Source of the DNA: Hyphobacterium sp. CCMP332
GTDB lineage: Bacteria; Bacteroidota; Bacteroidia; Cytophagales; CCMP332
Assembly: GCA_014323545.1 (NCBI GenBank)
Contig: CP058647.1
Span: 2,520,001 to 2,584,000, forward strand
DNA length: 64,000 nucleotides
Reading direction: 5' to 3'
Below the pieces are notes generated by a model, which had not been told where the DNA came from, made no database searches, and was given only the letters and a program-made list of their open reading frames with translations. Both the position numbers and the translations under genes were made by a program. Positions 2,324 to 60,109 of the stretch are shown one piece after another; position 1 is the stretch's first letter; each line of letters starts with the position of its first letter.

Positions 2324-3325
2324 CTACATTTCCGAAGTGTCTGATTGATTTAGTGTATCAGACATTGTATCATCATCATTAATTTCTTCAGAATTTGAAT
2401 CATTTGTGGCTTCAGGTTCATATAAATCGCCCTGAGGATCTTTTGGGTTGGCCGGTGTAGTTCCAACCAAAGTTTTAATATAGCTGGCAACGCTTTGCAT
2501 TTCTCCCGGATTTAATTTTGTCTGCCATGAAATCATTCCTTTTTCGGGAACGCCGTATTTAATGGTCGAAAATATATCCGAGATAGATCCACCGTGAATC
2601 CAATAATTATCCGTTAAATTAGGGCCTACACTTCCGCCTCCGTCTGCCTGATGGCATGCTTTGCATTCCTTGAGATAAATTTCTTTACCTTGAGCTAAAA
2701 CCAATTCGTCACTGATGAATTTCACTGAAGTTTCATCGATCAGGTTAGATTGTTTATCTCTCCATTCTGCAATTGCAATTTCTGCTTGTTTTACGTCATT
2801 TTCATATTCCGTAATCTGATCCTGAATATTACCAATTCCCCATAATTGAACCAGGTAGGCAATTGCGAAAATTATAGTACCTGCAAAAATTGCAGTTAAC
2901 CATGGAGGCATTCCATAATCCATTTCCCTAATTCCATCATAATCATGATCGAGCATCATGGATGTTCTCTCTTCTTTCTCAGCATACAATTTACCGGTGA
3001 TCAGTTTTTCTTTCATTCTTTCCCAGAGGGTCGGTGGTTCAACAAATTCACCGGCCGGGGCCTTTTGTCTTTCTATCGCTCTTTGCATATAACTAACCGT
3101 ATTTACCATAAGGGTAAGCGTTATGAGCAATAGAACCATTACTGTGGCAATCAGAATTAAAACAGTTAGCAATAATGGATCCATGGACATTAATGTCTCA
3201 AAAAATCCCGGTTCTACCTGTTCCATTATCTCTTCTGATTGGGCATTCGCCGGCAAAATTGTTCCAAATCCAAGAATCAGAATTACAATTAAACTGCCGC
3301 CAATTTTATATATATTTCTAATCAT
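2324..3325 (-). CDS. ccoP: cbb3-type cytochrome c oxidase subunit III (CcoP), mono-haem form
   Basis: This is the 333-residue electron-entry subunit of the high-affinity cbb3 terminal oxidase. It has an N-terminal hydrophobic segment (about 10-28), a second membrane helix (about 52-75), then the FixP_N-like stretch YDGIREMDYGMPPWL before a third helix (about 140-162). A single cytochrome c domain follows with one CxxCH haem site (ECKACHQA) and a distal Met (GMISW). Proteobacterial CcoP carries two haems c; here only one is present. The C-tail (about 290-333) is acidic and low in complexity. The start overlaps the end of ccoQ by 8 bases, so the two are translationally coupled. Identification as CcoP is firm from sequence and operon order. 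Confidence 0.93.
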   Translation of the reverse strand: MIRNIYKIGGSLIVILILGFGTILPANAQSEEIMEQVEPGFFETLMSMDPLLLTVLILIATVMVLLLITLTLMVNTVSYMQRAIERQKAPAGEFVEPPTLWERMKEKLITGKLYAEKEERTSMMLDHDYDGIREMDYGMPPWLTAIFAGTIIFAIAYLVQLWGIGNIQDQITEYENDVKQAEIAIAEWRDKQSNLIDETSVKFISDELVLAQGKEIYLKECKACHQADGGGSVGPNLTDNYWIHGGSISDIFSTIKYGVPEKGMISWQTKLNPGEMQSVASYIKTLVGTTPANPKDPQGDLYEPEATNDSNSEEINDDDTMSDTLNQSDTSEM

Positions 3326-3519: not shown

Positions 3520-5664
3520 TTATTCTTTTGAATTTAACATGGCCTGATCCTCATTTACTTTAATATCTGTACCCAGACGCTGTAAATAAGCTATCAGTGC
3601 AACAATTTCAGTTTCAGCAATGGTATTTATATTATCACCTTGAAGACTCTTGACAATCTCATTGGCCTGATTTATAAGGTCTTCATTTGCGCTTTCTTCA
3701 TATCCCAATTCATATGGCACACCTAATTTTCTTAGTGTACTTATTTTCGGTCCGGTTTGGCCCATGTCCACTGTTTGGGTGAACAGCCATGGATAGGCCG
3801 GCATTATAGATCCCGGTGAAATAGAACTTGGTTCTAACATATGTTGATAATGCCAGGAGTCCGGATATTTTCCTCCAACTCTATGCAGATCGGGCCCTGT
3901 GCGTTTTGAACCCCAGAGGAATGGATGGTCGTAAACAAATTCTCCGGCTTTTGAGTATTCTCCATATCGCTCCGTTTCAGATCTGAATGGACGAATCATT
4001 TGAGAATGGCAGCCTACACAACCTTCTCTTATGTAAATATCACGTCCATGCAATTCAAGCGGGGTATATGGTTTTACACTGGCTATTGTAGGGATATTGG
4101 ATTTGATCATTAATGTAGGTACTATTTCAACCAAACCACCTATAAGGATAATAATCGCTGATAAAACAGTTAACAGCATTGGTTTTCTTTCCAATAATCT
4201 ATGCCAATATGTATCATCTCCACTGAAAGTCGGATTCTTTTCAAGTGCAGGTGCTTCAGCTTCTTCATTGGCCACAAATTGTCCGGCCAAAGCTGTTTTA
4301 TACAAATTATAAGTCATCACAAATACCCCGATCAGATACAATGTACCACCCAGGGATCGTAAGAAATACATCGGTATAATTTGAGTTACTGTTTCAAGGA
4401 AATTACTGTATTTAAGAAAACCGTCGGGTGTAAATTCTTTCCACATTAAGCTCTGTGTAAAGCCTGCAAAATACATTGGCAATACCCAGAAAATTATTCC
4501 AAGTGTGCCAAGCCAAAAATGAACATTGGCCAATTTTTCTGAAAACAGTTTTGTCTTCCACATTTTTGGAACCATCCAGTAAATCATACCGAAGGTCAGG
4601 AATCCATTCCAGCCCAAAGCACCAACGTGAACGTGCGCCGGAATCCAGTCTGTATAATGCGCAATTGCATTAACATTTTTTAATGATAAAAGGGGTCCTT
4701 CAAGAGTGGCCATTCCATAGCAGGTAACGGCTACTACCATAAATTTCAGAATCGCACTTTCTCGCACTCTATCCCAGGCGCCTCTCAAGGTTAAAAGACC
4801 ATTAACCATACCACCCCAGGATGGAGCAATTAGCATAATGGAAAATACGGTACCCAATGCCTGTGCCCAACCGGGTAGAGACGTATAAAGTAAATGGTGT
4901 GGACCGGCCCAGATGTATATGAAAATTAATGTCCAAAAATGAACGATGGAAAGTTTATATGAATAAACCGGTCTGTTGGCTGCTTTTGGTAGATAGTAAT
5001 ACATTAGGCCTAAATAGGGCGTTGTCAGAAAGAAGGCCACCGCATTGTGCCCATACCACCATTGAACCAGGGCATCCTGTACACCTGCATAAGCCGAATA
5101 GCTTTTGAAAAAATTAACAGGTAATTCGAAACTGTTAAAAATATGAAGTACCGCAACAGTGACAAATGTTGCGATATAGAACCAAATGGCAACGTATAAA
5201 TGTCTTTCACGACGTTTTATAATCGTACCGAGCATATTTATACCAAAAACGACCCAAACGAGTGCTATGGCAATATCTATGGGCCATTCAAGCTCGGCAT
5301 ATTCCTTTGATGTGGTTATTCCTAAAGGCAAAGTAATGGCAGCTGCAAGGATTATAATTTGCCAACCCCAGAAATGCACCCAGCTCAATAAATCGCTAAA
5401 CATTCGGGCTTTGAGTAGCCTTTGCAAAGAATAATACACGCCCGCAAATATGGCATTGCCGACAAAAGCGAAAATAACTGCATTGGTGTGTAATGGTCTG
5501 ATTCTGCCAAACGTAGTGTATTGCAGATTAAGATTTAATTCCGGAATATAGAATTGTAGGGCTACCCATAATCCTACCGTCATTCCGACGATCCCAAATA
5601 AGACCGAAGCGATTATAAAATACTTTACAATCTTGTTATCATAGTTGAAACGTTCTATTCCCAT
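3520..5664 (-). CDS. ccoNO: cbb3-type cytochrome c oxidase, fused subunits I and II (CcoNO)
   Basis: The 714-residue protein joins the catalytic subunit CcoN (about 1-480) and the mono-haem cytochrome c subunit CcoO (about 500-714). The CcoN part has the haem-copper oxidase helices, with low-spin haem ligand region RPLHTNAVIF and the binuclear-site motifs WWYGHNAVAFF and WAGPHHLLYT. The CcoO part has a membrane anchor (about 493-512), the haem c motif GCVGCHSQMIRPF and the downstream GPDLHRVGGKYPDSWH and MPAYPWLF motifs. It reduces O2 to water at low oxygen and pumps protons in the inner membrane. The N-O fusion is common in Bacteroidota and absent in the classic proteobacterial operons. It starts three bases after the ccoS stop codon. 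Confidence 0.96.
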   Translation of the reverse strand: MGIERFNYDNKIVKYFIIASVLFGIVGMTVGLWVALQFYIPELNLNLQYTTFGRIRPLHTNAVIFAFVGNAIFAGVYYSLQRLLKARMFSDLLSWVHFWGWQIIILAAAITLPLGITTSKEYAELEWPIDIAIALVWVVFGINMLGTIIKRRERHLYVAIWFYIATFVTVAVLHIFNSFELPVNFFKSYSAYAGVQDALVQWWYGHNAVAFFLTTPYLGLMYYYLPKAANRPVYSYKLSIVHFWTLIFIYIWAGPHHLLYTSLPGWAQALGTVFSIMLIAPSWGGMVNGLLTLRGAWDRVRESAILKFMVVAVTCYGMATLEGPLLSLKNVNAIAHYTDWIPAHVHVGALGWNGFLTFGMIYWMVPKMWKTKLFSEKLANVHFWLGTLGIIFWVLPMYFAGFTQSLMWKEFTPDGFLKYSNFLETVTQIIPMYFLRSLGGTLYLIGVFVMTYNLYKTALAGQFVANEEAEAPALEKNPTFSGDDTYWHRLLERKPMLLTVLSAIIILIGGLVEIVPTLMIKSNIPTIASVKPYTPLELHGRDIYIREGCVGCHSQMIRPFRSETERYGEYSKAGEFVYDHPFLWGSKRTGPDLHRVGGKYPDSWHYQHMLEPSSISPGSIMPAYPWLFTQTVDMGQTGPKISTLRKLGVPYELGYEESANEDLINQANEIVKSLQGDNINTIAETEIVALIAYLQRLGTDIKVNEDQAMLNSKE

Positions 5665-5835: not shown

Positions 5836-8223
5836 TCATTTCATTCTTAGTTTTTTGGCCATAACATTTGTTGTAACAGTTGAAAAAACAACAACGGTTA
5901 TTGAGCTCAATGGCATCAAAATCGCAGCGAATACGGGCGTTAATAAGCCCTGTACAGCAAAATATAATCCTGTAATATTGTAGGCGGCAGATAGGATAAA
6001 TCCCGCTTTAACTGTATTGACACTGAATTTGCTGAATTTTAAAACCTTTTTTAGTTTATCAAAAGACAGGCTGTCCATAATAACATCACTGGCTGGAGAA
6101 AAATGACCGGTATTATCCGTCATGGAAATTCCAACATGACTTGATTTCAATGCGCCGGCATCATTCAGGCCATCGCCTATCATTATTACTTTCTTACCGC
6201 TCTTTGAAAGTTTTGTGACAAAATTTAGCTTATCAATGGGTTTTTGATTAAAGAGCAAGTCCGAGTTTTCAGGTAATAATTCAGAAAGTAATTTTTCATC
6301 CTTATTCGTATCACCTGAACAAAGCGCAATTTGATAATCTTTAGCGAGTTCCGGAAGCTGTGTTAGACTTGCCTTTCTTAGTTTATTGTGAAAGACATAT
6401 CGCCCTTTATATTTGCCATCAATCGAAATATGTACTCCTGGATTTTCCGGCAGATTCAAATATTCTGGAGATCCGATTTTAATATTTTGACCATTAATTT
6501 TACCTTCAATTCCCTGTCCAATTTCTTCACGAAATTCCATTAAAGGCAGAATTTCAGATTCTAATATTTCATTGAGTTTTCTGCTGGCAGGATGATTGGA
6601 TAAGGCACAGAGTGATTTAGTATAAGCCAATTCCTTTTCACTTAGGTTGTCGCCAATAAATTCAATTTCAATATTATTTGTTTCTGTGAGTGTGCCGGTT
6701 TTATCAAAAACCAGAAAATTTGATTGCGCAAGTTTTTCTACTACATCGCTGTTTTTTAAATAATATCCAGCATTGCCCAGAATTCTAATTGTATTGCCAT
6801 AAGTGTATGGAATGGTTAAAGCGAGAGCACATGGGCAGGCGATAATTAATACCGCGGAAAATATTTTAATGGATTGTCCTAGATCAGGCAGCCAGAAAAT
6901 TCCGGCAAGGACCGCTGTGGAAAGAACAAATATGGTAAACCATTTGCCAATGGAATCCGCCAGTGTTTTTAAACCTGTGATTTTTTCTGTTTTAAAATTC
7001 TGTTTGTTCCACAATTCGGTCAGGTATGACTTGGATACTTCTTTGATTATTTCAATCTCCAATGATGCTCCTTCCTGCTTTCCGCCTGCGTATATAATTT
7101 CACCCAATTCCTTATAAACAGGTGTCGATTCGCCGGTTACAAAGCTGTAATCAATGTAGGCAGTTCCTTTAAGCAATATTCCATCTGCAGGAATAAGATC
7201 CTGATTACGCACCAATATTCTATCCCCCTTTTTTATTTTTTCTAAAGGAATACTGGTATGAGCATTGTTCTTTATGAGATTTGCATATAAAGGAAAATAG
7301 GATTTATAATCTCTTTCAAAAGATATGTTTTGAAAAGTTTTTTGTTGAAATGCCTTTCCCAACAATAGAAAAAAGATGAGACCTGTGAAGGAATCAAGAT
7401 AACCGGGACCCTGAGCGCTTATAATTTCATAGGAAGACGTAAGAAACAAGGTAATCATACCCAGACTCAGTGGAAAATCAAGATTTATTAATTTTCTCTT
7501 CAATCCTCCTAATGCTGATTTAAAATAATCCAGATCAGAATATAACAATACGGGGATAGCAAAAAGCAGATTGATGTAAGCGAAGTAGTCTTTGAAATTT
7601 CTGCTTAAATCTCCGGTAAAATCGAAATACTCAGGCATGCTGAAAAGCATAATATTGCCAAAGCAAAAACCGGCAACTCCAATTTGATAATATAACTTCC
7701 TGTTATGAAAAGAATTGGTTTTCTTTTTTGTATCGGCTAGAGAAAGGGCAGGTTCATAACCCAACGATGCCAGCAGTATCACAAGTTCTTTTAAACTTAT
7801 TTTGTCCAATTCGAAAGATACACTTAGCGTTTTCTTTGGAAAATTTATACTGGACTGATTAATACCTTTGTTTAGTTTATACAATTTTTCCAAAAGCCAT
7901 ACACATGAGGCACAGTGAATTTGGGGTAAAAAAAATTGAATTCTAGCCTGATTATCATTTTTGAAGTCTAGAAGTTTTGAGATTATTTCCTTGTCGTCCA
8001 GGTAATCAAATTTTTCAGATGATTTTATTTTTGGGTTTATTCCTGGGTTAGCATCAATATTGTAATAGGTGCATAAATCATTTTGATTTAGTATCTCATA
8101 CACTGTTTTACAACCCCTACAACAAAAGTTTTTATCATCAAATGAAACCGCACCTGATGAACTGCATACATCACCACAGTGGTAACATTTATTTTTTACC
8201 TGAATATCAGTAATTGGTTTCAT
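5836..8223 (-). CDS. ccoI: Copper-translocating P-type ATPase CcoI (cbb3 oxidase copper loading)
   Basis: The 795-residue P1B-type ATPase has an N-terminal cysteine cluster (CYHCGDVC and FCCRGCKTVYE, residues about 13-45), a heavy-metal-associated domain with the site CASCVW (about 104), eight membrane helices, the transport motif ACPCALALT, the phosphorylation motif DKTGTLT and the hinge GDGLNDAGAL. The N-terminal zinc-ribbon-like cluster before the HMA domain is typical of the CcoI/FixI branch. It delivers copper for CcoN assembly. It is the first gene of ccoI-ccoS-ccoNO-ccoQ-ccoP; an FNR-like site lies 62 bases before its start codon. The usual partners ccoG and ccoH are not seen in this operon. 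Confidence 0.95.
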   Translation of the reverse strand: MKPITDIQVKNKCYHCGDVCSSSGAVSFDDKNFCCRGCKTVYEILNQNDLCTYYNIDANPGINPKIKSSEKFDYLDDKEIISKLLDFKNDNQARIQFFLPQIHCASCVWLLEKLYKLNKGINQSSINFPKKTLSVSFELDKISLKELVILLASLGYEPALSLADTKKKTNSFHNRKLYYQIGVAGFCFGNIMLFSMPEYFDFTGDLSRNFKDYFAYINLLFAIPVLLYSDLDYFKSALGGLKRKLINLDFPLSLGMITLFLTSSYEIISAQGPGYLDSFTGLIFFLLLGKAFQQKTFQNISFERDYKSYFPLYANLIKNNAHTSIPLEKIKKGDRILVRNQDLIPADGILLKGTAYIDYSFVTGESTPVYKELGEIIYAGGKQEGASLEIEIIKEVSKSYLTELWNKQNFKTEKITGLKTLADSIGKWFTIFVLSTAVLAGIFWLPDLGQSIKIFSAVLIIACPCALALTIPYTYGNTIRILGNAGYYLKNSDVVEKLAQSNFLVFDKTGTLTETNNIEIEFIGDNLSEKELAYTKSLCALSNHPASRKLNEILESEILPLMEFREEIGQGIEGKINGQNIKIGSPEYLNLPENPGVHISIDGKYKGRYVFHNKLRKASLTQLPELAKDYQIALCSGDTNKDEKLLSELLPENSDLLFNQKPIDKLNFVTKLSKSGKKVIMIGDGLNDAGALKSSHVGISMTDNTGHFSPASDVIMDSLSFDKLKKVLKFSKFSVNTVKAGFILSAAYNITGLYFAVQGLLTPVFAAILMPLSSITVVVFSTVTTNVMAKKLRMK

Positions 8224-8285
8224 AAATCAGGCTCTAAATTCTCTGTTTTATAAAATTGCGTAGATGACACATAGCAAAATGAGGC

Positions 8286-8299
8286 ATGATCTAAATCAT
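8286..8299. promoter_or_regulatory. FNR-like site in the ccoI / sensor kinase intergenic region
   Basis: ATGAT-CTAA-ATCAT is a perfect palindrome with the FNR/FixK core TGAT-N4-ATCA. It lies between the divergent ccoI (start 8223) and histidine kinase (start 8376) genes, so it could act on either. The neighbouring plus-strand operon encodes a Crp/Fnr-type regulator that could bind it. Confidence 0.6.
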
Positions 8300-8375
8300 A
8301 TTTAAAATTCGCACTGAATTCTAATGTAATTTTTGAAATTGAAGGAGAGGTATTTTCTTTGATACAAATTTCACA

Positions 8376-10412
8376 ATGGAGAGAAAAGATAATTCAGTAA
8401 TAGATCAAAAATTTGCCGGTATCTATAAGCAATTATTTGAGGCTGCGGGAGAGGGATTAATAATTAGCAACACAGAAGGTAAAATCGTATTGGCCAATCC
8501 AAGTGCTAATAAAATTTTTGGATACGAATCGGAGCATTTGGATGGAATGAAAATTGAAGATCTGATTCCGAATGAAAAAAAAGATATTCACAGAGCACAT
8601 CGAAAAAACTATAATTCGAGGCCATCTGTCAGAACTATGGGGGCGGGAATGACGCTTTTCGCAAAAAAGAAAAATGGTGATAAGCTCCCTGTGGAAATAA
8701 GTTTGAATCATTTTAAGCATGAAGGTGAGTTGTTTGTGATGGCAATGATTACAGATATTAGCAAAAAATGGGAACTGGATCGCCAACTTCATAAGGAAAA
8801 AGAAACAGCTCAAATGTATTTGGATATTGCCAGCGCGATATTTCTGGTTATTGACAGGCAAGGAAAAGTCGAGTTATTAAATAGATCCGGAGAAGAACTT
8901 TTGGGCGTTAAAGAACAGGATATATTAAGTACAAACTGGTTTGACAATTTTGTGCATCCGAAAGATGTCAAGCTGGCTAAGGCATTTTTTAATAAGGCAT
9001 TTCATCAGGAAAACCTTGAGATGCATAAGGTTGAATTCCGTGTTAAAACAAAAAACAAAGGAGAAAAGACCATCTCATGGTTGAATTCTTCATTAAAAAA
9101 TGAAAATGGAGAAACCCGTGCTGTACTTTGTTCTGGCCAGGATATTACTGATAGAATAGAAGCAAGTGAAAAACTGAAACTCTATGCCAATAAACTGGAA
9201 AAAATGGTGGAAGTTAGAACAAAAAAGCTCACAGAAGCGGTAGAGAATCTTGGAAGTGCCAATAAGAAATTAGAAGAACAAAATAAGGAAATCAGACAGG
9301 CACAGCGTTTACTTCAGGAAAGTCAGGAACTCTATAAAATCATTGCACGAAATTTTCCAAAGGGTACAATTAGCGTTTTTGATAAAAACCTCGATTATGT
9401 GTTTGTAGAAGGAAAAGAACTGTATGAACTGGGTGTAACCAGTGAAATGTTAATTGGTACTAATTTACTGGACCGGCTATCACCGGAAATTAAAGAAGAC
9501 ACCCGACTGGCATTAATGGATGTATTGAAAGGAGAAGCAAAAAAAATTGAGGTTAATCAAAAAAATAATTTCTACTTGTTAAATGCTGTACCATTAAAAG
9601 ATATTAATGGAGATATAAGCCAAATTATGGTTGTAGAACAAAATGTTACAGAATCAAAAATGGTAGAAGAAAATATTAAAAATGCACTAAAAAAAGAACG
9701 CGACCTGGGGGAATTGAAAACAAGATTTGTTTCAATGGCATCTCATGAGTTTCGCACTCCTTTAAGTACTATACTCTCTTCCGTATCATTGATCAAAAAG
9801 TATCTTGAAAACGAAAATCCGGAAAAAATCGATAAACATATTTCGAGAATTAAATCTTCAGTTTCCAATTTGACCAACATTTTGAATGACTTTCTTTCAT
9901 TGGGAAAACTCGAAGAAGGAAAAATTTCTGTAAGCAAGGAAAGAATTTCAATTCCACAACTGGCTATGGAAATTACAGAGGAAATGCAAAGTCAGGCAAA
10001 AAATGGTCAGAACATTAATTTCCAGCACAGCGGTGAAAGCGAGGATTTTGAAATAGATAAAGGTATATTGAGAAATATCATTACCAATTTACTTTCGAAT
10101 GCCCTTAAATACTCTTCTGAAAATAGCGAAATTAGAGTCAATTCTGAAATTTCAAATTCAAATTTGAAGATATCAGTTAAAGATTCCGGAATTGGAATCC
10201 CAGTTGAAGAACAAAAGTTTTTATTTGACCGTTTTTTTAGAGCAAAAAATGCGTCCAACATACAAGGAACTGGATTGGGTTTAAACATTGTAAAGAAATA
10301 TGTTGAATTAATGGGTGGGCAAATTAGCTTTACAAGTAGACCCGAAAAAGGTACAATTTTTACAGTTATCTTTGACCAGAAAGACATAGATACCATAATA
10401 GAAGAACAATGA
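8376..10412 (+). CDS. PAS-domain sensor histidine kinase, FixL-like first PAS
   Basis: This 678-residue kinase has no membrane helix and is probably cytoplasmic. PAS domain 1 (about 14-130) resembles FixL: HRAHRKNY, then RTMGAGM and DKLPVEISL. PAS 2 spans about 145-262, a coiled coil about 262-325, and a third PAS-like region about 325-425. The phosphoacceptor is His457 in SHEFRTPLST, followed by the ATPase domain with N box NIITNLLSNALKYS, DSGIGIP and GTGLGLN. The stop codon overlaps the start of the response regulator by four bases, so the pair is coupled. Its place beside the cbb3 operon suggests oxygen or redox sensing. Haem binding by PAS 1 is only an inference from likeness to FixL. Confidence 0.92.
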   Translation: MERKDNSVIDQKFAGIYKQLFEAAGEGLIISNTEGKIVLANPSANKIFGYESEHLDGMKIEDLIPNEKKDIHRAHRKNYNSRPSVRTMGAGMTLFAKKKNGDKLPVEISLNHFKHEGELFVMAMITDISKKWELDRQLHKEKETAQMYLDIASAIFLVIDRQGKVELLNRSGEELLGVKEQDILSTNWFDNFVHPKDVKLAKAFFNKAFHQENLEMHKVEFRVKTKNKGEKTISWLNSSLKNENGETRAVLCSGQDITDRIEASEKLKLYANKLEKMVEVRTKKLTEAVENLGSANKKLEEQNKEIRQAQRLLQESQELYKIIARNFPKGTISVFDKNLDYVFVEGKELYELGVTSEMLIGTNLLDRLSPEIKEDTRLALMDVLKGEAKKIEVNQKNNFYLLNAVPLKDINGDISQIMVVEQNVTESKMVEENIKNALKKERDLGELKTRFVSMASHEFRTPLSTILSSVSLIKKYLENENPEKIDKHISRIKSSVSNLTNILNDFLSLGKLEEGKISVSKERISIPQLAMEITEEMQSQAKNGQNINFQHSGESEDFEIDKGILRNIITNLLSNALKYSSENSEIRVNSEISNSNLKISVKDSGIGIPVEEQKFLFDRFFRAKNASNIQGTGLGLNIVKKYVELMGGQISFTSRPEKGTIFTVIFDQKDIDTIIEEQ

Positions 10413-11467
10413 TCAAGATACTTCTTATAGAAGATAATGTGGATGTAAGGGAAAATACACAGGAGATATTGGAATTGGCAAATTATCAGGTGGAAACCGC
10501 AGAGAATGGCAAGATTGGAGTAGAAAAGGCGAAAACACTCATTCCCGATCTAATAATTTGCGATATCATGATGCCTGAACTCGATGGGTATGGTGTATTA
10601 TACATGCTTTCTAAGAATCCTTTAACCGCATCTATCCCATTTATTTTTCTAACCGCAAAAACCGAGAAAACCGATATTCGAAAGGGTATGAATATGGGCG
10701 CCGATGATTATTTGACCAAACCCTTTGAAGAGATGGAATTACTGGATACTATCGAATCGAGGCTGAAAAGAAGCGAATTACTCAAAAAAGAATTTGACCA
10801 GAGTTCTGAGGGAATTGCAGAATTTATTGAAGAAGTAAAGGGGATTAAAGAGCTGGAAAAACTTTCTGAAGATCGAAAAACGAGAAATTATAAAAAGAAA
10901 TCGATTGTTTTTTACGAAGGCGATTATCCTAACTCGATTTATTTTGTGAATTCAGGCAAGGTCAAAACGTTCAAAATGAATGAAGATGGGAAAGAGTTTA
11001 TCACCGGACTTTTTAAAAAAGGTGATTTTATAGGTTATATACCCATATTAGAAAATTCAAATCATCCTGATACATGCATGGTAATGGAAGATTCGGAAAT
11101 ACTGGTTATTCCTCGAATGGATTTTCTAGATCTTGTACACAGCAATAGGGATGTGGCCAATAAGTTTATTAAACTTCTTTCCTCAAATGTGATGGATAAA
11201 GAAGAACAATTGTTAAATCTTGCATATAATACTGTAAGAAAGCGCGTAGCCACAGCATTAGTTAGTCTTTTCGATACATATAAAGAAGAAGACAAAGATG
11301 AGTTTTCCATGCCTATTTCCCGAGACGATTTAGCGAGTATGGTAGGCACAACGACAGAATCTGTTATAAGAACTCTCTCCGAGTTTAAGGATGAATCTTT
11401 AATTTCTATTAAAGGAAGAAACATAACAATTCTTCAGCCCAAAGAATTAGCCAAAATTAAATACTGA
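10409..11467 (+). CDS. Response regulator: receiver domain fused to Crp/Fnr-type DNA-binding protein
   Basis: Residues 1-120 form a CheY-like receiver with the acidic pair E8-D9, phosphoacceptor Asp52 (IICDIMMPELDGY), Thr82 and Lys104 (TKPFE). Residues about 150-265 form a cyclic-nucleotide-binding-type beta-roll (VFYEGDYPNSIYFVNSGKV). Residues about 285-350 are a Crp-type winged helix; the recognition helix GTTTESVIRTLSEF keeps the Glu and Arg that read TGA half-sites. There is no N-terminal cysteine cluster as in FNR, so any oxygen signal must come from the kinase through phosphorylation. It overlaps the kinase gene (ATGA). Likely targets are the TGAT-N4-ATCA sites near 8.29, 11.47 and 60.11 kb. 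Confidence 0.92.
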   Translation: MIKILLIEDNVDVRENTQEILELANYQVETAENGKIGVEKAKTLIPDLIICDIMMPELDGYGVLYMLSKNPLTASIPFIFLTAKTEKTDIRKGMNMGADDYLTKPFEEMELLDTIESRLKRSELLKKEFDQSSEGIAEFIEEVKGIKELEKLSEDRKTRNYKKKSIVFYEGDYPNSIYFVNSGKVKTFKMNEDGKEFITGLFKKGDFIGYIPILENSNHPDTCMVMEDSEILVIPRMDFLDLVHSNRDVANKFIKLLSSNVMDKEEQLLNLAYNTVRKRVATALVSLFDTYKEEDKDEFSMPISRDDLASMVGTTTESVIRTLSEFKDESLISIKGRNITILQPKELAKIKY

Positions 11468-11476
11468 TAAAAATCA
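11465..11476. promoter_or_regulatory. FNR-like site upstream of the universal stress protein gene
   Basis: TGAT-AAAA-ATCA begins at the TGA stop codon of the regulator gene and lies 120 bases before the chosen start of the stress protein gene. The spacing would suit an activator site, although no clear promoter box can be pointed to behind it. Confidence 0.45.
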
Positions 11477-11596
11477 CCTTTTGCTTTGACTGGCCTCATC
11501 GCAGAGTAAGGTGTGTCCATTCATTTTTGTAAAGTCACAAATATGTACAAAGGTCATTTATTATTGACCTTTTTTACTATTACAAGCGATTTTTAC

Positions 11597-12415
11597 ATGA
11601 TATCAGTACTTGTACCAACAGATTTTTCAAAAAATGCATATCACGCGCTCAAGTATGCGATCTCTATGATCAATGGAAAATCTATTCATGTGATATTGTT
11701 AAATACGTATCAATTGCTTCCCTCCACAAGTGAAATGTTTATTTCAATTGACGATATCCTTCAAAAGAATTCTGAGAAAGGTTTGAAGAATGAAATTGAA
11801 ACAGTACAAAAGGAATTTCCAAAGAAAAATTTTACTTATGATTTGATTTCGCTCAGTGGCAGTCTGAAATTTGGAATAAAACAAGTGATTAAAGACCAGA
11901 ATGTTGATCTGGTCATGATGGGAACATGTGGAGCGACAGGTCTAGAAAAACTTTTTATTGGAAGCAATGCCTCCGACATAATAAAGTCCATTGGTAAACC
12001 AGTTGTCATTCTGCCGGATGAAAAAAAAATAAAAAAACTGGATAAAATAGTTCTTGCCATTGGTTACTCAGAACCGGTTGACGCAAAAATGTTGCAATCA
12101 TTAAAATTGATGGCAGAATTAAATAAATCACGTATCCATATAGTTTCCATTGTTCCGGAGGGCAAGTCTTCTGAAATTATGAAAATTTCAAACAAAGCGG
12201 CGGTCTGTGCTGAGCTGGAAGATTTCCCACATAGTTATGAATTAATAGAAGGGAGTAATGTTGTGGATTCCATCAATAGTTTTGTCCTCAAAAAAAAAGC
12301 CAATATGCTTGCTGTTATTCCGCATAAGATGGGGTTTTTCGAGAGTTTCTTTCACAAAAGTGTGAGCAAGGAACTTGTGCTACGGGCACAAATTCCAATG
12401 ATGGCCATGCATTAA
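11597..12415 (+). CDS. Universal stress protein, tandem UspA domains
   Basis: The product of about 272 residues has two UspA-like domains (about 1-145 and 150-272). The first opens MISVLVPTDFSKNAYHAL and holds the ATP-binding-type motif GTCGATGLEKLFIGSNAS; the second is more degraded. The frame is open back to an ATG at 11513, but the extra 28 residues are hydrophobic and unlike the family, and the canonical Usp start falls at ATG 11597, so that start is chosen. Tandem UspA proteins are often induced under low oxygen or energy stress. An FNR-like site upstream and the adjacent regulator fit that. The gene is convergent with the giant surface protein gene, with only 23 bases between the stops. 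Confidence 0.85.
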   Translation: MISVLVPTDFSKNAYHALKYAISMINGKSIHVILLNTYQLLPSTSEMFISIDDILQKNSEKGLKNEIETVQKEFPKKNFTYDLISLSGSLKFGIKQVIKDQNVDLVMMGTCGATGLEKLFIGSNASDIIKSIGKPVVILPDEKKIKKLDKIVLAIGYSEPVDAKMLQSLKLMAELNKSRIHIVSIVPEGKSSEIMKISNKAAVCAELEDFPHSYELIEGSNVVDSINSFVLKKKANMLAVIPHKMGFFESFFHKSVSKELVLRAQIPMMAMH

Positions 12416-12438: not shown

Positions 12439-15400
12439 TTACCTTGTAATAACCATTCTCGATTTGGTAATCCCGTATTTCGGATGAGCTATTTGGACAA
12501 TATACACTCCTGAAGCCTGGTCTTTAAGATTTAGCAAGACGCTCTTTGTACCGGAATAAATTTCCTCTTCAAACACCTTATATCCCATTTGATTGTAAAT
12601 CGTCAATACTTCTTCTCCCTCAGCCGGAGCTTCAAATTCCAAGATTGAAGTTCCCTTGTTCGGATTTGGATATAATTTAAAGTTAAATGTATTTGATGTC
12701 AACTGATTTTCAATAGCGTTAGGCACCCAAATATTAGTCGTATCATCGCTTGCTACCTGATATATTTCCCTGGTTACATTGTCCTGAATAAACGCTACTA
12801 CGTAAATACTATCAGGGTTGTAAACATTGTTATAATTCCAGTTGAAATTAATGGATCGAGAATCTCCAGGCACGTTAATAGTATTGATATTTGTTCCTGA
12901 AGCTTGAGGTAAGAATTTTTTAAATGCGCTTCTAAATTCAACACCTTGAGGAATTTGAATTGTTCCACTTGAAAAAGCATTCACCGGAATGAATTTTTCG
13001 ATTACAGCTATAAATGCTGTGTACTCTCTTCCCTGTACCAGATTTTGTTTGGCAGTATAGGTAACAGTTCCATTGAGGTTGTTATTTGTTTTTGTAACAC
13101 TCAAATCAATATCAAATTTTGCGTCTTTAAGTATTCTTTGAGCCACAAATTTTTGCTTTCCATCATCCAGAATATTGGCATTGGAAACCCAGGTTGAGGT
13201 CACATTGTTGAATACGTTTCCTTCAAAAACAGTCCTCGGAATAGTAGAAACGCCGTAAAATAATGATCTGGCACCCTGCTCCAATGAATTGTCTAAATTG
13301 ACGGGATCCTGACCGGGGAAATCCGTATGATACTGAATATCCAGAATATCATATTGGTTTCTCATTGTGTTTATTAATTCATTGTGATCTTTATCGCCTT
13401 GTCTTGCATTTTGATCTGAAATGTTTGTGAAATGCTCAATCAAAGTCAGTTTATCCCTTTCCTTAATCCGAACGTTCCCAAATGCAAAGCCCTCTCTGGC
13501 TCCAACGTTCACATTAGAACTTCCAAAGGCCATTCTTAGACGAACAAATGGATTATTAGAACCAATTGGCGGGTTATTTCTTAGGGTATCTAATTGATGG
13601 CGGGCTTCTCTCCATACAGAATCCTGTATGCTCCATCCAACCTGACCCAAAGCTTGATTTCCGGGGTTTCCGGCAATAGAACTTTCATTATACCATTCCA
13701 AACCTGTTTCTTCCAATCCTACGGTTTTCCATGTTTGACCTCTGTTTTGAGAATACTGAAGAACGACCCCATCATTTACAGCCAGATCGCTGAAATAATC
13801 AAATATTATCATTGGCCGTCTTACCCTTGAAAAATCAAAACAAGGGCCTTCCACATAGGATTTCTCTTGCGAGTTATAAGAACCATTAGCATTCGTTATC
13901 CAAACCTGTTGAATACTTCCATTTGGCCCGGTGTTAATTTTTGTGCCGTTTGGAAAAGCTTGTTCCCAGCTGTATCCTGTGCTAAGTGTAGCTGGACGCC
14001 ATTCAATACTGTCATTGTCGAAATCCGAAGTATATACAGCTCCATTTGATAGGTCAATCACAGGCCGGATATCGAGTCTTAAAATCGTATCATCCGAACA
14101 ACCATAACTTGTAGCCAGATCTAATTGCATTGCATATGCTCCTGGATCATTAAATTGATAGTTAAAACCCCCACTATTGACAAATGAATCTAAAAGATTA
14201 TTTTGATTAAATGGGAATTGACTTAGTCTCCATTTGAAATCCCCACTGCCAACAGAATCTGTGTTGTCTGAATTATTTGTGAAGACAATATCAATGTCTT
14301 CGCAGATATCATTGATATTAAATTTTGCAATAGGGGGGGCACCAAAGTAAATGTCCCTATCAGTATCGTCTTCGCAGCCAATGGTATTTGTTACTTTTAA
14401 TTCTATGTTATAAGTATTCTGACCAAGCCCTATAGTATCATAATCAAAAGTTGGATTTTGAACATTTGAAAATCGATTTGGTGCTAATATCCACTCCCAG
14501 GAAATTATCGAATCGGCGGGGTTACCCGGTGTATTATTATTTAATGATGTATCAACAAAATTAATCGGATCAGTAATACAAAACTCGTTGACTTCAAATC
14601 CAGCTACCGGATCTGCATAAATATAGATATCCTGGCTGTCAGTATCGACACAGGCACCGGATTGAGTTACTAGGTCAACATACAAAGTTAATGGACCAAC
14701 CGGTTGAAACTGAGGTGTAAATACATTTCCATTTGGATTTTGGCCATTTGGAATTCTTCTGAATATATTTCCGGCCAGAAACCCATTTGGTTGATTTTCT
14801 ATAATGATATAATTACTTGGATCAGATTTACAAAATTGAGAAAGAGAACTGATGGTATCCTGTATTGTAAATTCGATATTTGGTTTGGGATATACAGTTA
14901 CTGCTTTAGATAGTGAATCAATACATCCATAACCGTTAAGAACCGTATATTTAATAGAATCAGTTGTACCCTGATCCGTAAAAGCTGCCGGAATGACCTG
15001 GGGATTAAAAGTAGCCGAATCATTGGCAAAGTTTAAGATACCCGGGCCTGAAAAATAGCCGGAATCGAAATTAGAAATCCCACCCAATCCAAAAACTAAA
15101 TCAATTGTATCATATTCACAATACCTGGGAGATGGGCTGAAACTATTGTTCGTTAATCTAGGTAAAGGATTTACGATAAGGCTCTGAAATGCCTCATTTC
15201 TACATCTTGGTGCAGTTTCAGTTTCAGTAAATGTATAGTGCAAGGTATAATTGATAGGATTTAATACACTTTGTGCGATTTCATTTGGTTTTAAAAAAAA
15301 CAAAGTATCGTTTGGCTGACCACTTACTGAATTGAAAAAGTTTTCACTTGGTAGGATTGGATTACCATTGACCTGTACAGAACCAAACCCAGACATTGTT

Positions 15401-18400
15401 GAAGTTGGCCTTATGATAAGAGTGTCTACGCTTTTGCATATTTCCGGATTGTTACCGGTTATAGTTAAAAAGGATGTATCAATTAATAAGTCTAAATTAG
15501 GTGTATCTAAAACATCTATTATAAAGGTAAAAACATCCTGACAGCCCGTATTTGAAGTATAGTTAAATTGCAATGTATGTGGTCCTGTGAGATTGGTATT
15601 AATCGGATAAAAAGTCCAAACTGTATCACTAACTCCTGGACGAATACTAGTACCCATTGTACTTCCATCAGACAAATCGGTAAATACAGATTCATTAAAG
15701 TTTACAGTTGAAGAAATCGAAGTATCATTTCTTCCAACGAAGTAAATTGAATCTCCATTAATACAAATGGGAATCGTATCATTGTTGAGATTACTAATAT
15801 TGGGTTGAGATAACACAGAATTAAATACATTAACTCCGAGAAATGGTTCGGCCTCTATGTCTACGAGTTTGCTTACACTGTCAATGCATCCAGTGACCGT
15901 ATCAGTAAAGACATGTCGAATCTCATATTGAGTACCTGAAGGAAGGGCAGAAGAGAATTGGATAGTATCATTTGTTGGAGATCCAATCAATCCACCAGGT
16001 CCGGGACCCGGATCTGGTATTATTTTATATAAACCTGTTCCTGTAATTGGTGGGCCGGGTAGGAATGAACGATAAATATTTACAGCCGGATCTTCGGTGC
16101 AAAATTTATTAAAAGTCGGAGGATCATCATTAAATGAAGACAAAGGATCACCATTTATTTCAAAATTGCTTGGTATTCCATTGACTTCAACATTTTGAGA
16201 ACTGCTGTTAAAACACCCGGTCACAGGATGTGTAAATCCATAGGTTATCGTTTTTGTCCCGGCTGAGAATGTGGAAAAGGTTTGCTGTGGGTTAAATATA
16301 GCTTCTCCACTGCCTAAATTCAATGTATTAGTGTTTGAAGATGTGTATGTACCACCATTTTGATTTCCTTTTAACAAGATATAAGTTTCATTGCTGCAAA
16401 ATCTCAAATCCGAAATTGTATCTCCAAACAGAGTATCTGTTAAAACGTAACCTACGACTGGAAGCGGACTTACAGTCATCGTAAGTGAAGCTGAATCAAT
16501 ACAAGTGTTGCCAGGGTGAAATTGTCTGAAAATATAGGTAACTATATGATTTCCAACACCTGCGGTTACAGGATTGAAAATCGCGTTTTCATTATTTTGA
16601 GAAAAAACATTTGAAAAACTTGTATTATCATTCCCAATAGGAACTGGTGAACCTGTAACACTGACTTGTGCACCATCAATGCATAATGAATCGTCAAAAA
16701 CAGAGATTCCTACTGTTGGCAAGGCATTTATTGCAGTGTTTGCAAAAACCGAATCAATACATCCAATTGTATCCGTGAATACATAAAAGAATGTATCTGC
16801 AACATTTGGTGAAAGTACGGTAACATCAAGAAGCCCACTTAAAGAGTCAATGGCAATATGTGCTGTACCCACACCTCCAAAATATCCAGTACCCACCGTT
16901 GGAATAGTGGTGCCACCTATCAATGTGTCTTGAAGACTATTAATACAATAGTCAACATCCAATCCACTAAGCGTTGCTGTTGGTACCAGATTAACAGATC
17001 TAACAGAATCAACAGAATTAGTACACCCAAATATATTTGTGTAAGTATAGGTGAAGTTTTGCGTACCCAATGTTGGAATCCCAGGAGTAAATTCAACAGT
17101 ACCAAGACTGTCATTATTACTAAGACCGGATCCTGAAAATACTCCAAAAGTTGTAACATTATCCGGTATTGGATTTCCAGTAATCAAATCTGTGACATCA
17201 TTTGAGCAATAATTTCCACTTTGCGAAAATGTCATACTCGGAGTTGGAATAGAATTCACCGTCAAACTAACAGTGCTGGTATCATTACAACCATTTGCAT
17301 CTTCATAAATATAGGTGACAATTGTGTTTCCAACTCCCGCTGTGATTGGAGCAAAATCTGCAGAGTTTCCAAAATTGCTTATCCCGCTTCCTGAGAAATT
17401 CTGTACAGCCCCACTTGAAGGAATTCCATTTAATGTTCTTACGGGGTCATTTAGACAAAATACAGAACTACCATTTGTATTAATAGAAGCATTCGGAGCT
17501 GTGTTGATTCTAATTGTTGTTGTCACGTTTAATACTGATGCACCCAATTGATAATCATACTGTAAAATATAATTACCCGGAGCAGCATTTGGATTAATAA
17601 CCCCTTGTGTCGTACTTGCTCCTAGAGGCGATAAAACTCCGGCAATAGGTACAAACCCAATGGGTGTTCCTCCCGAGGCTGGAACTCCAGTAATCGTATC
17701 CAAAGGCTCATCGCTACAATAGGCTGGTTCTTCTCCAATAATGTCACCTGAGCCTGCACTTGAGACTGTAACATTCAATAAATCAGAATCGCTACATCCA
17801 TTAGTATCGATCTGAGTATAGCTCAAATTAAAATTACCGGCACCGGTAAGTCCGGGAAAAAATTGATTTCCAAAAACACCCGGACCACCATATGTGCCAC
17901 CGGCTGGTGAACCTCCTGTAAGGGTAAATGCCGGGTCAGTGGTCAAATAACTGGTTTGATCAATAAATGAAACAGAAGTGTTTTCATTTACCGTAATATT
18001 TTCAGTGTTGGAACTGACACATCCAAATTCATTAGTGTAAGTATAGTCAATTGTAAAAGTTCCTGCTCCCGATACCAAAGGGTCAAAATCAGATATGCCA
18101 TTTCCTCCATCCGTTAAGCCAGAGCCTGCTACCAAACTGAATACACCTGTGGCTGGAAGAACAGGTGCAGGACTTGCAGAAATTGTTTGATTTCCATCCT
18201 CTATACAAATAGAATCATTGGGGATGGTTATTAAAATAGTATTCCCATTACTTATTTTTCTTTGAACTACGTTTGATGTTGCGTCATCGCCCCCTTTATA
18301 AGTTATCCTTCTAAAAAATCTAACGTTGGTATGCGGACCATTAACCGTGTATGAAGGAGAAGCTCCAGCCACAAATATTTTTGTCCATGATGCTCCATTG

Positions 18401-50156: not shown

Positions 50157-50351
50157 TTAATTATTTCTATTGTTTTTTTCACAAATACTACCACAACCAC
50201 AATTTCCACAAGAGTTGCGTCCTGCAAGGGCATCATCATCTACCACATGATCTTTAAAGGTGTTTTTCCAAATATTTTGAACAAAAACCCAGATTATCAT
50301 CAAGAAAATTATGCCGAGTATGGCTACTGCATATGTGATTATTCTTTCCAT
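50157..50351 (-). CDS. Small Cys-rich membrane protein (NqrM-like)
   Basis: The 64-residue protein has one membrane helix (about 8-29) and a Cys cluster near the C-terminus: SCGNCGCGSIC. It resembles NqrM in layout, a factor needed for iron insertion into the Na+-NQR complex, and also FeoB-associated Cys-rich proteins. The operon position between rnfA and the reductase favours a maturation role for the Rnf complex, but this is an inference. It overlaps the rnfA stop by one base. Confidence 0.7.
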   Translation of the reverse strand: MERIITYAVAILGIIFLMIIWVFVQNIWKNTFKDHVVDDDALAGRNSCGNCGCGSICEKNNRNN

Positions 50352-50932
50352 TAATTTCCAAGTCCTGAAAACCCCATAAATGAAAGCGACAATATTCCTG
50401 CAATCATTAATGTGATAACCGTTCCTTTAACTACTTTAGGTACTTCCGCAAATTCCAGTTGTTCTCTTAATCCTGCTATCAGCAATAAAGCCAATGTAAA
50501 TCCGGCACCCGCACCAAGTGCATAAACAATACTTTGGCCCAGGCCATAACCTTTACTTGTTTGAAATAGGGCCAGACCTAGGATTGCACAATTCGTGGTT
50601 ATCAATGGAAGAAATATGCCTAAAGCTTTAAAGAGTGTCGGGCTCATTTTTTTAATAAACATTTCCACCAATTGCACAGTAGATGCAATGACAACAATAT
50701 AGCTTATCAATTGTAAAAAGGGGGCATTAACCATGATTAAAAAACTATGTATTCCATAAGCACATAAGGAACTTATGAGCATCACGAAAGTCACCGCAGC
50801 ACCCATTTTGCTGGCAGTTTCAACTTTTCCTGACACTCCAAGGAAAGGACAAATTCCAAGGAAATAAGCCAAAACGAAATTGTTGACCAGCGAAGCATTT
50901 ATAAATACAGACCAAAGGGATTCGGTATTCAT
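50351..50932 (-). CDS. rnfA: Rnf complex subunit RnfA
   Basis: The 193-residue integral protein has six membrane helices and the RnfA/NqrE-family blocks NNFVLAYFLGICPFLGVSG, TNCAILGLALF and GAGAGFTLALLLIAGLREQL. It forms part of the membrane core, with a Cys-containing iron site shared with RnfE. It begins 2 bases after the rnfE stop. Confidence 0.95.
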   Translation of the reverse strand: MNTESLWSVFINASLVNNFVLAYFLGICPFLGVSGKVETASKMGAAVTFVMLISSLCAYGIHSFLIMVNAPFLQLISYIVVIASTVQLVEMFIKKMSPTLFKALGIFLPLITTNCAILGLALFQTSKGYGLGQSIVYALGAGAGFTLALLLIAGLREQLEFAEVPKVVKGTVITLMIAGILSLSFMGFSGLGN

Positions 50933-50933
50933 C

Positions 50934-51566
50934 TTAGTTGTTTTTTGATTGAATTAAATTGAACAGCAATAACCACAATGCAAGTGTGAAAAAACCACCT
51001 GCCGGAAGTATCATTACTATCCATTCCTGAAAATTATTACCAAAGAGATTGAGTCCGAAAAAAGATCCGTTGCCAAGAATTTCTCTTACCGCTCCCAGAC
51101 TGAATAATGCAATGGTAAAACCAAGCCCCATTCCCAAAGCATCCAAAATGGACTTGCCTAATGTATTTTTTGAGGCAAAGGCTTCAGCGCGACTTAATAT
51201 CAAGCAATTCACCACGATCAATGAAATAAATGCACCGAGGCTTTTATGTAAATCAACGCTAATAGCCTGAATAGTATAATCGGTAATGGTTACAAAAGTG
51301 GCAATGATGAGTATATAAGAAGCTATTCTTACCTGTTTAGGTATAAAATTCCGAAGTGCTGAAACCAAGATATTTGACATAAGAAGCACAAAGGCTGTCG
51401 CTAACCCCATGGCAAGCGCATTTAATGCCGTATTTGAAACTGCAAGCACAGGACACATTCCCAATACCTGAACAAAAACGGGATTGTCTTTCCAAATTCC
51501 TTTAATAAACTCATTTGTAGATGGAATTTGATGTTCTTTGGCAATATGATTTGAATCTTCTGTCAT
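50934..51566 (-). CDS. rnfE: Rnf complex subunit RnfE
   Basis: The 210-residue integral protein has six membrane helices and the RnfE/NqrD blocks WKDNPVFVQVLGMCPVLAVS, VNCLILSRAEAFA and GMGLGFTIALFSLGAVREIL. The Cys residues in MCPVL and NCLIL match those of the shared iron site. It begins 4 bases after the rnfG stop. Confidence 0.95.
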   Translation of the reverse strand: MTEDSNHIAKEHQIPSTNEFIKGIWKDNPVFVQVLGMCPVLAVSNTALNALAMGLATAFVLLMSNILVSALRNFIPKQVRIASYILIIATFVTITDYTIQAISVDLHKSLGAFISLIVVNCLILSRAEAFASKNTLGKSILDALGMGLGFTIALFSLGAVREILGNGSFFGLNLFGNNFQEWIVMILPAGGFFTLALWLLLFNLIQSKNN

Positions 51567-51569
51567 TAT

Positions 51570-52232
51570 CTAAAATTCATCAGAATTAGCCTTAATTATC
51601 GGAAGCCAGTGATTTGCACTTTTATCCAAAATGTCACCAATTGCTCTCGAAGAAATCGTTGCACCTGTTATTCCATCTACTTCCCAGGAATTATTTTTTG
51701 TACCACTTTTTACAGTAACTATGGAGTGAATCAATTTTGAGTTTTCCTCATTCATTTTGACATCTAAGGCTATAAAATTTTGCCTGAAGTTTTCGTCTTT
51801 CTCAATTTTATCGCCGAGTCCCGGTGTTTCTTTACTTTCCAGCACGTACATGCCAATTATTGTTTGTTTTTTTGGTTCATATCCGTAAAGTATTCTAATG
51901 ACATCGGCATAGCCCTGACCTTCGGCAGGTATGGCAAAGCCAATTAATTCATCACTGTCGTTATAACCGGCGTATAAAATAGGCCCATCGGATTTCTTTT
52001 CTTTAAGTTCAGCAAAGCTTCCATCTTTTAATTCAAAACTTTTAGTAGTTGTGATTCCGGGGATCACTTTAAATATTGCTTCCTGAAGGGCATTTTCTTT
52101 TAAAGTTTGTATTCTTGAAAATGTGGATTCGTAGGTCAATACAATTAAAAATGCACATACAGCGCCAATGCCCACCATTGCTCTGAGCATTTTAGTATTT
52201 GATTTTTTCGCTATTTGTTCTGTGTTGGACAT
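51570..52232 (-). CDS. rnfG: Rnf complex subunit RnfG (FMN-binding)
   Basis: The 220-residue protein has an N-terminal membrane helix (about 15-33) and an FMN-binding domain. The flavinylation motif DGITGATISS places the covalent FMN on Thr192. Other family blocks are KETPGLGDKI and GFAIPAEGQGY. No apbE flavin transferase gene is in the window, so it must be elsewhere. The start overlaps the rnfD stop by one base. Confidence 0.95.
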   Translation of the reverse strand: MSNTEQIAKKSNTKMLRAMVGIGAVCAFLIVLTYESTFSRIQTLKENALQEAIFKVIPGITTTKSFELKDGSFAELKEKKSDGPILYAGYNDSDELIGFAIPAEGQGYADVIRILYGYEPKKQTIIGMYVLESKETPGLGDKIEKDENFRQNFIALDVKMNEENSKLIHSIVTVKSGTKNNSWEVDGITGATISSRAIGDILDKSANHWLPIIKANSDEF

Positions 52233-60005: not shown

Positions 60006-60109
60006 TATTTATCTCTTTTAATTGAAAATTCTAAGGAATTTCATCCTCGTGAACATCCAAACTATTTAAATTGATAAGAGACTGTTATGAGAAGGGTCAA
60101 GTGTGAAAA

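Follow-up and report, generated by a model that had tools for sequence, protein, structure and literature searches.

The window analyzed here is a stretch of 64,000 nucleotides from Hyphobacterium sp. CCMP332 (contig CP058647.1, positions 2,520,001 to 2,584,000), which encodes a sensor histidine kinase and, directly after it, a response regulator that joins a receiver to the two domains of a Crp/Fnr-type DNA-binding protein. With a probability of roughly 75%, we judge that this FixL-like PAS kinase phosphorylates the fused receiver-FNR/FixK binder, which would then activate low-oxygen genes from tandem operators in which two palindromes are centered 22 bp apart. The original prediction had proposed a regulon of this kind with a single core, TGAT-N4-ATCA, as the binding site. 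The sites are conserved among relatives of the regulator, are not equally frequent in coding DNA, and in their paired form follow the regulator from genome to genome. The regulon model is supported by these checks, and in its refined form the operator would be the 22-bp tandem and not one core.

Tandem Operators in the Window

The kinase gene (8376-10412, plus strand) and the regulator gene (10409-11467, plus strand) overlap by 4 bases. The domains that had been proposed for both proteins were confirmed using Pfam. The kinase has a PAS-HisKA-HATPase_c architecture with three PAS boxes (three sensory_box stretches), and the regulator contains a receiver at residues 4-115, a cNMP-binding fold at residues 159-245, and an HTH_Crp_2 domain at residues 278-350.

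Copies of TGAT-N4-ATCA had been reported at 8287-8298, 11465-11476, and 60110-60121, before the cbb3 oxidase and kinase genes, a universal stress protein (Usp) gene, and the genes for pyruvate:ferredoxin oxidoreductase (PFOR) and Rnf, respectively. All three were found at these positions, and the gene content around them was borne out by Pfam and NCBIfam models. The window holds five cores rather than three; the additional two, at 59095 and 61604, lie inside open reading frames (ORFs). The earlier remark that the count alone is weak stands; the number expected by chance is 3.22 (standard deviation 1.60). Since five cores are set against 3.22 and 19 of 100 shuffled windows reach five, the count is uninformative. 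The three cores are intergenic in the main, except that the regulator gene ends with the first TGA of the core at 11465 as its stop codon. Two related loci (L079 and L087) show this overlap as well, which brings it to 3 of the 79 sources examined. The entire 3.33 Mb genome contains 166 matches to TGAT-N4-ATCA.

At all three intergenic cores, a further TGA-N6-TCA site lies at a distance of exactly 22 bp, with 5, 6, and 6 of the 6 fixed positions matched, and at the two ORF-internal cores no more than 2 of 6 are matched at this distance. It is in these partners, overlooked by the original prediction, and not in the core count that the window exceeds chance. The first predicted tandem operator (8265-8298) stands between the divergent genes for a P-type ATPase (P-ATPase) and the kinase and consists of TGACACATAGCA at 8265-8276 (5/6) and TGATCTAAATCA at 8287-8298. 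The second (11465-11498, plus strand) precedes the universal stress gene and consists of TGATAAAAATCA at 11465-11476 and TGACTGGCCTCA at 11487-11498 (6/6). The third (60088-60121, minus strand) precedes the PFOR-Rnf operon, with TGATTTAAATCA at 60110-60121 as the predicted distal site and TGAGAAGGGTCA at 60088-60099 (plus-strand letters, 6/6) as the proximal site.

Of only five strict 22-bp tandems in the whole genome of 3.33 Mb, two are the Usp and PFOR pairs, although the window makes up 1.9% of this genome. A complete check of tandems that allowed one mismatch at most gave 11 places. Five of these are outside ORFs: the three predicted operators of the window (Usp, PFOR, and kinase/P-ATPase) and two promoters between divergent Usp genes. 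With up to two mismatches there are 122 matches on both strands, and the tandems with two mismatches were sampled. The own-genome sample comprised 42 loci or stretches and 30 single-core loci, and the promoter check covered sites with one strict TGAY-N4-RTCA.

Conservation of the Operator

A total of 80 loci, each with flanks of up to 10 kb, were picked for encoding a near-full-length protein closely related to the regulator, and not by their sites. The record titles of 76 of the 80 name Bacteroidota groups; L073, L095, and L112 carry other phylum names and are probably mis-binned. Together with the window, these loci form 81 sources with 1.42 Mb of DNA, of which 8.3% is intergenic according to a simple ORF caller.

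All 256 four-base palindromes with a gap of 4 were counted in the intergenic DNA and compared with the expectation from half-site frequencies. The top two by z are TGAC-N4-GTCA (44 versus 1.1 expected) and TGAT-N4-ATCA (91 versus 5.5 expected). TGAT palindromes with gaps of 3, 5, 6, 7, and 8 are at or under expectation. The combined pattern TGAY-N4-RTCA is conserved, with 221 intergenic and 126 genic occurrences and at least one intergenic copy in 71 of the 81 sources. After deduplication at 80% or more regulator identity, which left 65 of the 81 sources and 1.09 Mb, there were 179 intergenic and 92 genic sites, although only 8% of this DNA is intergenic. The 179 sites are found in 56 of the 65 sources, and the same half-sites with gaps of 2, 3, 5, and 6 occur 9, 2, 7, and 8 times, respectively, so the gap of 4 is about 20-fold or more enriched over neighboring gap lengths. 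A or C is favored before the site, and T or G after it.

Among 44 successive intergenic pairs within 120 bp, 27 are separated by 22 bp, 5 by 23 bp, and 2 by 21 bp. A strict partner at 20-24 bp is lacking for 147 sites; in 46% of these, a partner of at least 5/6 lies at exactly 22 bp, and the shares at the remaining offsets between 13 and 44 are 0 to 3.4%. These data bear on the possibility that the cores of the window are chance matches. Their bare number would allow it, but all three intergenic cores are partnered at exactly the distance that stands out here, two of the few strict tandems in the genome fall within the window, and the orthologous regions are enriched for sites. A chance origin, already disfavored, is thus very improbable.

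Tandems Follow the Fused Regulator

The distribution of tandems was compared among 59 genomes of the order of the window, which we take to be the Cytophagales. A near-full-length ortholog of the regulator is encoded in 25 of these genomes and is missing from 34. One genome (G041) was scored as positive although its copy has an internal stop, and another (G057) was scored as negative on a weaker match (3.6e-66); the locus of the latter, L056, contains a diverged receiver-Crp/Fnr gene and a PAS kinase gene. Strict 22-bp tandems number 100 in the 25 genomes with the regulator (0.70 per Mb, 24 genomes with at least one) and 18 in the 34 without it (0.15 per Mb, 9 genomes with at least one), with a Mann-Whitney p of 6e-8 when kinship is ignored. 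The pattern read backward is a poor control since it contains stop codons, and other spacings were used. A spacing of 23 bp gave 36 versus 8 tandems (p = 1.5e-4) and was dropped as a control because it resembles a minor real variant. For the same reason a 27-bp spacing was added, which gave 25 versus 29 (p = 0.71). Kinship is ignored in these two p-values as well.

In a phylum-wide draw of 118 genomes, the regulator was found in 17, all of them within the class of the window. Within this class, 78 tandems occur in the 17 genomes with the regulator (14 have any) and 6 in the 12 without it (3 have any; p = 0.001). When only genomes not used before were counted, the values were 57 tandems in 14 genomes and 4 in 10, respectively (p = 0.0045). 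The 89 genomes of the other classes contain 36 tandems.

The DNA upstream of ccoN was used to compare single and paired sites. Of 43 genomes with a ccoN match, 42 were included; G001, in which the match is split over two contigs, was left out. A single core is equally common with the regulator (14/22) and without it (12/20). The lone core is therefore not assignable to the fused regulator and was ruled out as its mark, and the claim was narrowed to tandems. A 22-bp partner upstream of ccoN is present in 10/22 genomes with the regulator and in 2/20 without it (p = 0.017). The half-site appears to be common to a wider protein group, probably the standalone FNR types, with pairing as the probable mark of the fused regulator.

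Two genomes are exceptions to this pattern. G043 (L195 and L233) has a strict 22-bp tandem upstream of ccoN, with no full-length fused regulator listed. G057 is perhaps no exception, because its locus carries the diverged receiver-Crp/Fnr gene.

The Fused Regulator and Standalone FNR-like Proteins

The Pfam matches of the regulator have E-values of 5.2e-28 for Response_reg, 4.4e-23 for cNMP_binding, and 8.8e-19 for HTH_Crp_2, the latter two above cutoff. The combination of the cNMP_binding fold with HTH_Crp_2 places the protein in the Crp/Fnr superfamily. In an alignment of 24 fused proteins, the receiver residues D52 and K104 are invariant and T82 is found in at least 90%. Tyr210 is also invariant and corresponds, by eye, to the glutamate in the GEL stretch of CRP. 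The cAMP contacts of Escherichia coli CRP include Glu72 and Arg82. The curated NCBIfam model for FixK gives the regulator 77.3 bits with a cutoff of 300, and no NCBIfam model reaches its cutoff among the best 25 of 105 matches. Among the best 60 of 253 matches in a sequence search of the PDB, no best stretch spans both halves of the protein. A tblastn search of plasmids provided at least six records covering 80% or more of the regulator (three from Hymenobacter, one from Runella, and two from Spirosoma). No paper with a title or listing on a receiver-Crp/Fnr regulator in Bacteroidota was found in a literature search with thin coverage of subscription journals, which is no proof of novelty.

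The sites could belong to a standalone FNR or another Crp/Fnr protein instead of the neighboring fused regulator. The set used for this comparison consists of the best standalone FNR-like protein per genome, from 19 genomes without the regulator and 4 with it, weaker paralogs being omitted. Its recognition helices are very similar to those of the fused proteins (for example, GTATESVIRLLSEFK in a standalone and GTTTESVIRTLSEFK in a fused protein). In CRP and FNR, the G of TGA is recognized by the Glu-x-x-x-Arg pair of this helix. Both residues are kept in 23/23 standalone and 24/24 fused proteins, and the single cores before ccoN in genomes that lack the fused regulator would also suit a standalone protein. 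In the genome of the window, which is 98.4% complete, the only other HTH_Crp_2 proteins are two with the helices SRQTVTTVL and SRVVISRLL. Neither has the Glu-x-x-x-Arg pair, as Q or V replaces the glutamate; the helix of the regulator itself reads TESVIRTLSEF. The 22-bp tandem, moreover, follows the fused regulator both upstream of ccoN and genome-wide. Assignment of the sites to a standalone or other Crp/Fnr protein is therefore unlikely, and the fused regulator is preferred as the binder.

The two types of protein differ in their cysteines. The standalone proteins have Cys at the first position of the N-terminal CxxC in 23/23, at the second in 22/23, and at the internal position in 23/23. 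The fused proteins contain 1-4 Cys each, with a CxxC in 1/24, located within the cNMP-binding part, and the internal Cys in 4/24. The full ligand set of an FNR-type iron-sulfur cluster (N-terminal CxxC, third, and internal Cys) was not found in any of the 24 fused proteins. In an unrooted tree of the shared domains, with the receiver trimmed off, one branch (support 89/85) separates the fused from the standalone proteins, and a single change between the types is kept in all 200 bootstrap trees. Standalone FNR-like proteins at E < 1e-31 are listed for 4/25 genomes with the regulator and 19/34 without it (p = 0.003), and weaker matches occur in some other genomes. Lineages thus appear to carry mostly one type or the other; the tree, being unrooted, gives no direction of exchange. 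In seven genomes (G008, G022, G028, G037, G043, G050, and G051) a standalone FNR-like gene lies within about 7 kb of ccoN.

Promoter Geometry

The motif TAnnTTTG, presumably the Bacteroidota -7 box with its first T near -12, was located relative to the centers of 97 oriented, deduplicated sites. It appears at +51 for 14 sites and at +29 for 8, so that 22/97 sites have an exact box at one of these offsets; no other offset within 120 bp has more than 2. The two peaks are 22 apart, as expected if the -7 box keeps a fixed distance to the proximal site. If the first T of the box is near -12, the site centers would be near -41 (proximal) and -63 (distal). This would be a class-II-like arrangement, since sites of class II activators are centered near -41.

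In the window, a candidate -7 box, CATTTTTG (11522-11529, plus strand), matches 5/6 fixed bases and is positioned 29 bp past the center of the proximal Usp site. A second candidate, TAGTTTGG (60057-60064, minus strand, coordinates by hand), also matches 5/6 and is 29 bp past the center of the proximal PFOR site. On the P-ATPase side of its operator, the best -7 box is at +29 with 4/6.

The Kinase and Its Possible Signal

The first PAS domain of the kinase (about residues 10-130) resembles the heme PAS domains of DosP (1v9y, 2e-11) and FixL (1d06, 4e-9). With the first 267 residues as the query, 17 distinct PDB sequences were obtained at E 0.001, of which 13 are DosP or FixL; the top match is a histidine kinase PAS domain (10jx, 7e-12). 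His72 of the kinase aligns in this search with a histidine of DosP that we take to be the heme ligand, with His200 as the presumed FixL counterpart by numbering. Of 75 aligned paired kinases, 14 have a gap at this column and were excluded (ten with a receiver-like stretch and four with a short upstream ORF). A histidine is present in 59 of the remaining 61. Twenty residues past the histidine, at what is presumably the position of FixL Arg220, Arg is found in 22/75 rows and Met in 21/75. An IGIGRE stretch is present in six paired kinases, and the FixL-type paired kinase that was tested (L125) matches solved FixL structures at 8e-31.

The ten kinases that read as having a receiver in place of the PAS domain are L064-L067, L074, L076, L082, L096, L102, and L115, and 7/10 are from Pontibacter, Rufibacter, and Adhaeribacter. 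The kinase input therefore appears to differ between lineages, and this suggests a swapped input in Pontibacter and relatives.

The system might operate as described with a signal other than oxygen, such as nitric oxide, a different redox cue, or a ligand, and with a PAS domain without heme. The kinase of the window has Met where FixL has Arg220, and an unlinked PAS kinase of the same genome also shows, by eye, a histidine at the position of His72, so that the histidine alone is no proof of heme. The receiver-type kinases point in the same direction, and a ScdA-hemerythrin gene among the site neighbors would suit nitrosative stress too. Oxygen is favored over such cues by the preponderance of DosP and FixL among the solved relatives of the N-terminus and by the kinases with the IGIGRE stretch. 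It is likewise favored by the site neighbors, which include genes for cbb3 oxidase, FixS, CcoG-type, radical-SAM HemN-like, and glutamyl-tRNA reductase proteins. These neighboring genes and the heme-PAS-like kinase are what suggest oxygen as the signal, and a different cue is somewhat unlikely, though less so than a different binding protein.

Proposed Mechanism

The architecture of the two proteins, the conservation of the operator, the 22-bp spacing, the promoter geometry, and the tracking of tandems with the regulator are evident from sequence, and the following mechanism is proposed to link them. Falling oxygen would be perceived by the PAS kinase, whose first PAS domain is probably heme-bearing like those of FixL or DosP, and the kinase would phosphorylate Asp52 of the receiver. 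The regulator would be an FNR/FixK-family binder without FNR-type cysteines, for which the receiver serves as the input instead. Phosphorylated dimers would bind two adjacent TGAY-N4-RTCA palindromes with centers 22 bp apart, or two helical turns, presumably in a cooperative manner. With the proximal palindrome about 41 bp and the distal one about 63 bp before the transcription start, binding would be expected to activate rather than repress.

Several observations weigh against this mechanism, in addition to the single cores at ccoN and the kinase features described above. There is no intergenic TGAY-N4-RTCA in 10 of the 81 sources. An operator is located within 350 bp upstream in only 34/75 paired kinase genes and within 120 bp behind the regulator gene in only 22/79 loci. 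In the genome of the window, 6/11 tandems with at most one mismatch are inside ORFs, including 2/5 of the strict ones. Strict tandems are missing from some genomes that have the regulator (1/25 in the order set and 3/17 in the phylum draw), some without it have 3-4 (G046, G047, G050, and G075), and the neglect of kinship in the genome-wide contrast must be counted here as well. The best -7 match of the kinase promoter is at +34/35 and not at +29, and the two Usp-Usp promoters gave no -7 match.

Neighboring Genes and Likely Targets

Across the loci, 228 genes lie no more than 350 bp from an intergenic site. They were clustered, with 66 left unclustered; divergent neighbors among them are perhaps not targets. 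Clusters were named from one representative each, and HemN by reading. The clusters include the paired kinase group with 40 genes (33 encode the paired kinase itself), Usp (32), P-ATPase (10), and CcoNO (10). These are followed by radical-SAM HemN-like proteins (8), FixS (6), glutamyl-tRNA reductase (5), and DoxX-like proteins (5), and by small clusters that include ScdA-hemerythrin (3), Hsp20 (3), FixG-type (2), and others.

A family of 11 genes encoding proteins of 119-187 residues (for example, L097:4584-4973) recurs next to operators and, with one representative tested, gave no Pfam match; it is possibly a member of the regulon. A second small family of 5 genes next to operators (L089:1869-2249) also gave no Pfam match for the one representative tested. 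In genome 342046, L018:1597-2616 encodes a fusion of ribulose-phosphate 3-epimerase with a CBS domain; a core lies upstream of this gene and has a weak partner at 22 bp.

Two further tandems of the window's genome have two mismatches each. One precedes ccoG at 2515461, identified by a CcoG model match above cutoff, and has a -7 box at +29; the other precedes a YceI gene at 1566956 and has a -7 box at +51. With the five non-ORF tandems described above these make seven operators, of which 5/7 fall within 70 kb. The likely targets predicted in this genome are the kinase-regulator operon, the divergent ccoI-like gene, ccoG, five universal stress genes, the PFOR-Rnf operon, and the YceI gene.

The P-ATPase, CcoN-CcoO, and CcoP genes are to the left of the kinase gene, and the PFOR-Rnf operon is at the right end of the window. 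The heavy-metal P-type ATPase (5836-8223, minus strand) resembles CcoI/FixI in position and family. The cbb3 oxidase subunits CcoN and CcoO are encoded as a single fused polypeptide (3520-5664, minus strand; Pfam COX1 and FixO), and CcoP, identified with Pfam, is encoded at 2324-3325 on the minus strand. The universal stress gene (11599-12415, plus strand) is given with a proposed start; its Usp match of 1.4e-24 was obtained with Pfam on the 11513 frame, and ATG 11599 is more likely to be the start than the GTG at 11513 of the ORF list. The PFOR operon is headed by a 122-residue ORF (59637-60005, minus strand) for which no Pfam family was matched. It continues with PFOR (54588-59510, minus strand) and RnfC, D, G, E, and A (50351-54584, minus strand), which were identified with NCBIfam, RnfG being slightly below its cutoff. 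At 12439-20754 the window encodes a secreted-looking protein of 2771 residues that has numerous SprB/Ig-like repeats and ends in a T9SS-like C-terminus, as judged by reading only.

Relation to Known Systems

FixL-FixJ-FixK of rhizobia and Caulobacter likewise combines a PAS histidine kinase, a phospho-receiver, and a Crp/Fnr-family binder. The resemblance extends to the genes next to the sites, which include cbb3 oxidase, FixG- and FixS-type assembly, and P-ATPase genes. FixJ and FixK are separate proteins there, and FixJ has its own DNA-binding domain; here the receiver and the Crp/Fnr domains are in one chain. Because one protein carries both a FixJ-like receiver and a FixK/FNR-like binder, one transcription step would be skipped. 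A passage of one study names fixK as the main target of FixJ (PMC4999443).

With FNR of Proteobacteria and the FNR-like proteins of Cytophagales, the fused proteins share the fold and the recognition helix. They differ from FNR in lacking the FNR-type N-terminal CxxC, in the added receiver, and in the 22-bp tandem as the predicted operator. The first PAS domain of the kinase is like those of DosP and other heme-PAS oxygen sensors, although DosP itself is not a histidine kinase.

As described in passages of PMC11841059, NmpRSTU of Myxococcus xanthus is similar in that its sensor kinase depends on heme and its hypoxia regulon includes cbb3 oxidase, the P-type ATPase of this oxidase, and HemN; the text of that paper mentions universal stress proteins 12 times. 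NmpRSTU differs in its NtrC-like regulator and protoglobin sensor, and the proteins are unrelated. For Flavobacterium psychrophilum, a passage of PMC9723704 reports that the cbb3 oxidase is strongly induced at low oxygen, and the main text of that paper contains no word beginning with Fnr or Crp.

The regulon-like pattern is real, the operator is well defined, and the proteins combine known parts in a new way, with a FixL-like kinase and a FixJ-like receiver joined to an FNR/FixK-like binder. A wider reading, put forward tentatively as one that may well not hold, is that in one Bacteroidota class an FNR-type regulator gave up its iron-sulfur oxygen sensor and took on a phospho-receiver under the control of a FixL-like heme kinase. 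The recognition helix would have been kept, the target genes would overlap, and the operators would have been doubled into 22-bp tandems because the phosphorylated receivers of neighboring dimers touch and make binding cooperative.

For these environmental bacteria, the analysis provides a concrete, testable low-oxygen regulon with a predicted regulator, a target list, and an operator grammar of two TGAY-N4-RTCA sites 22 bp apart with a -7 box 29 bp further on. It may also represent a natural rewiring experiment, in which much the same DNA code is read with a different sensor chemistry and the operator differs with the sensor.

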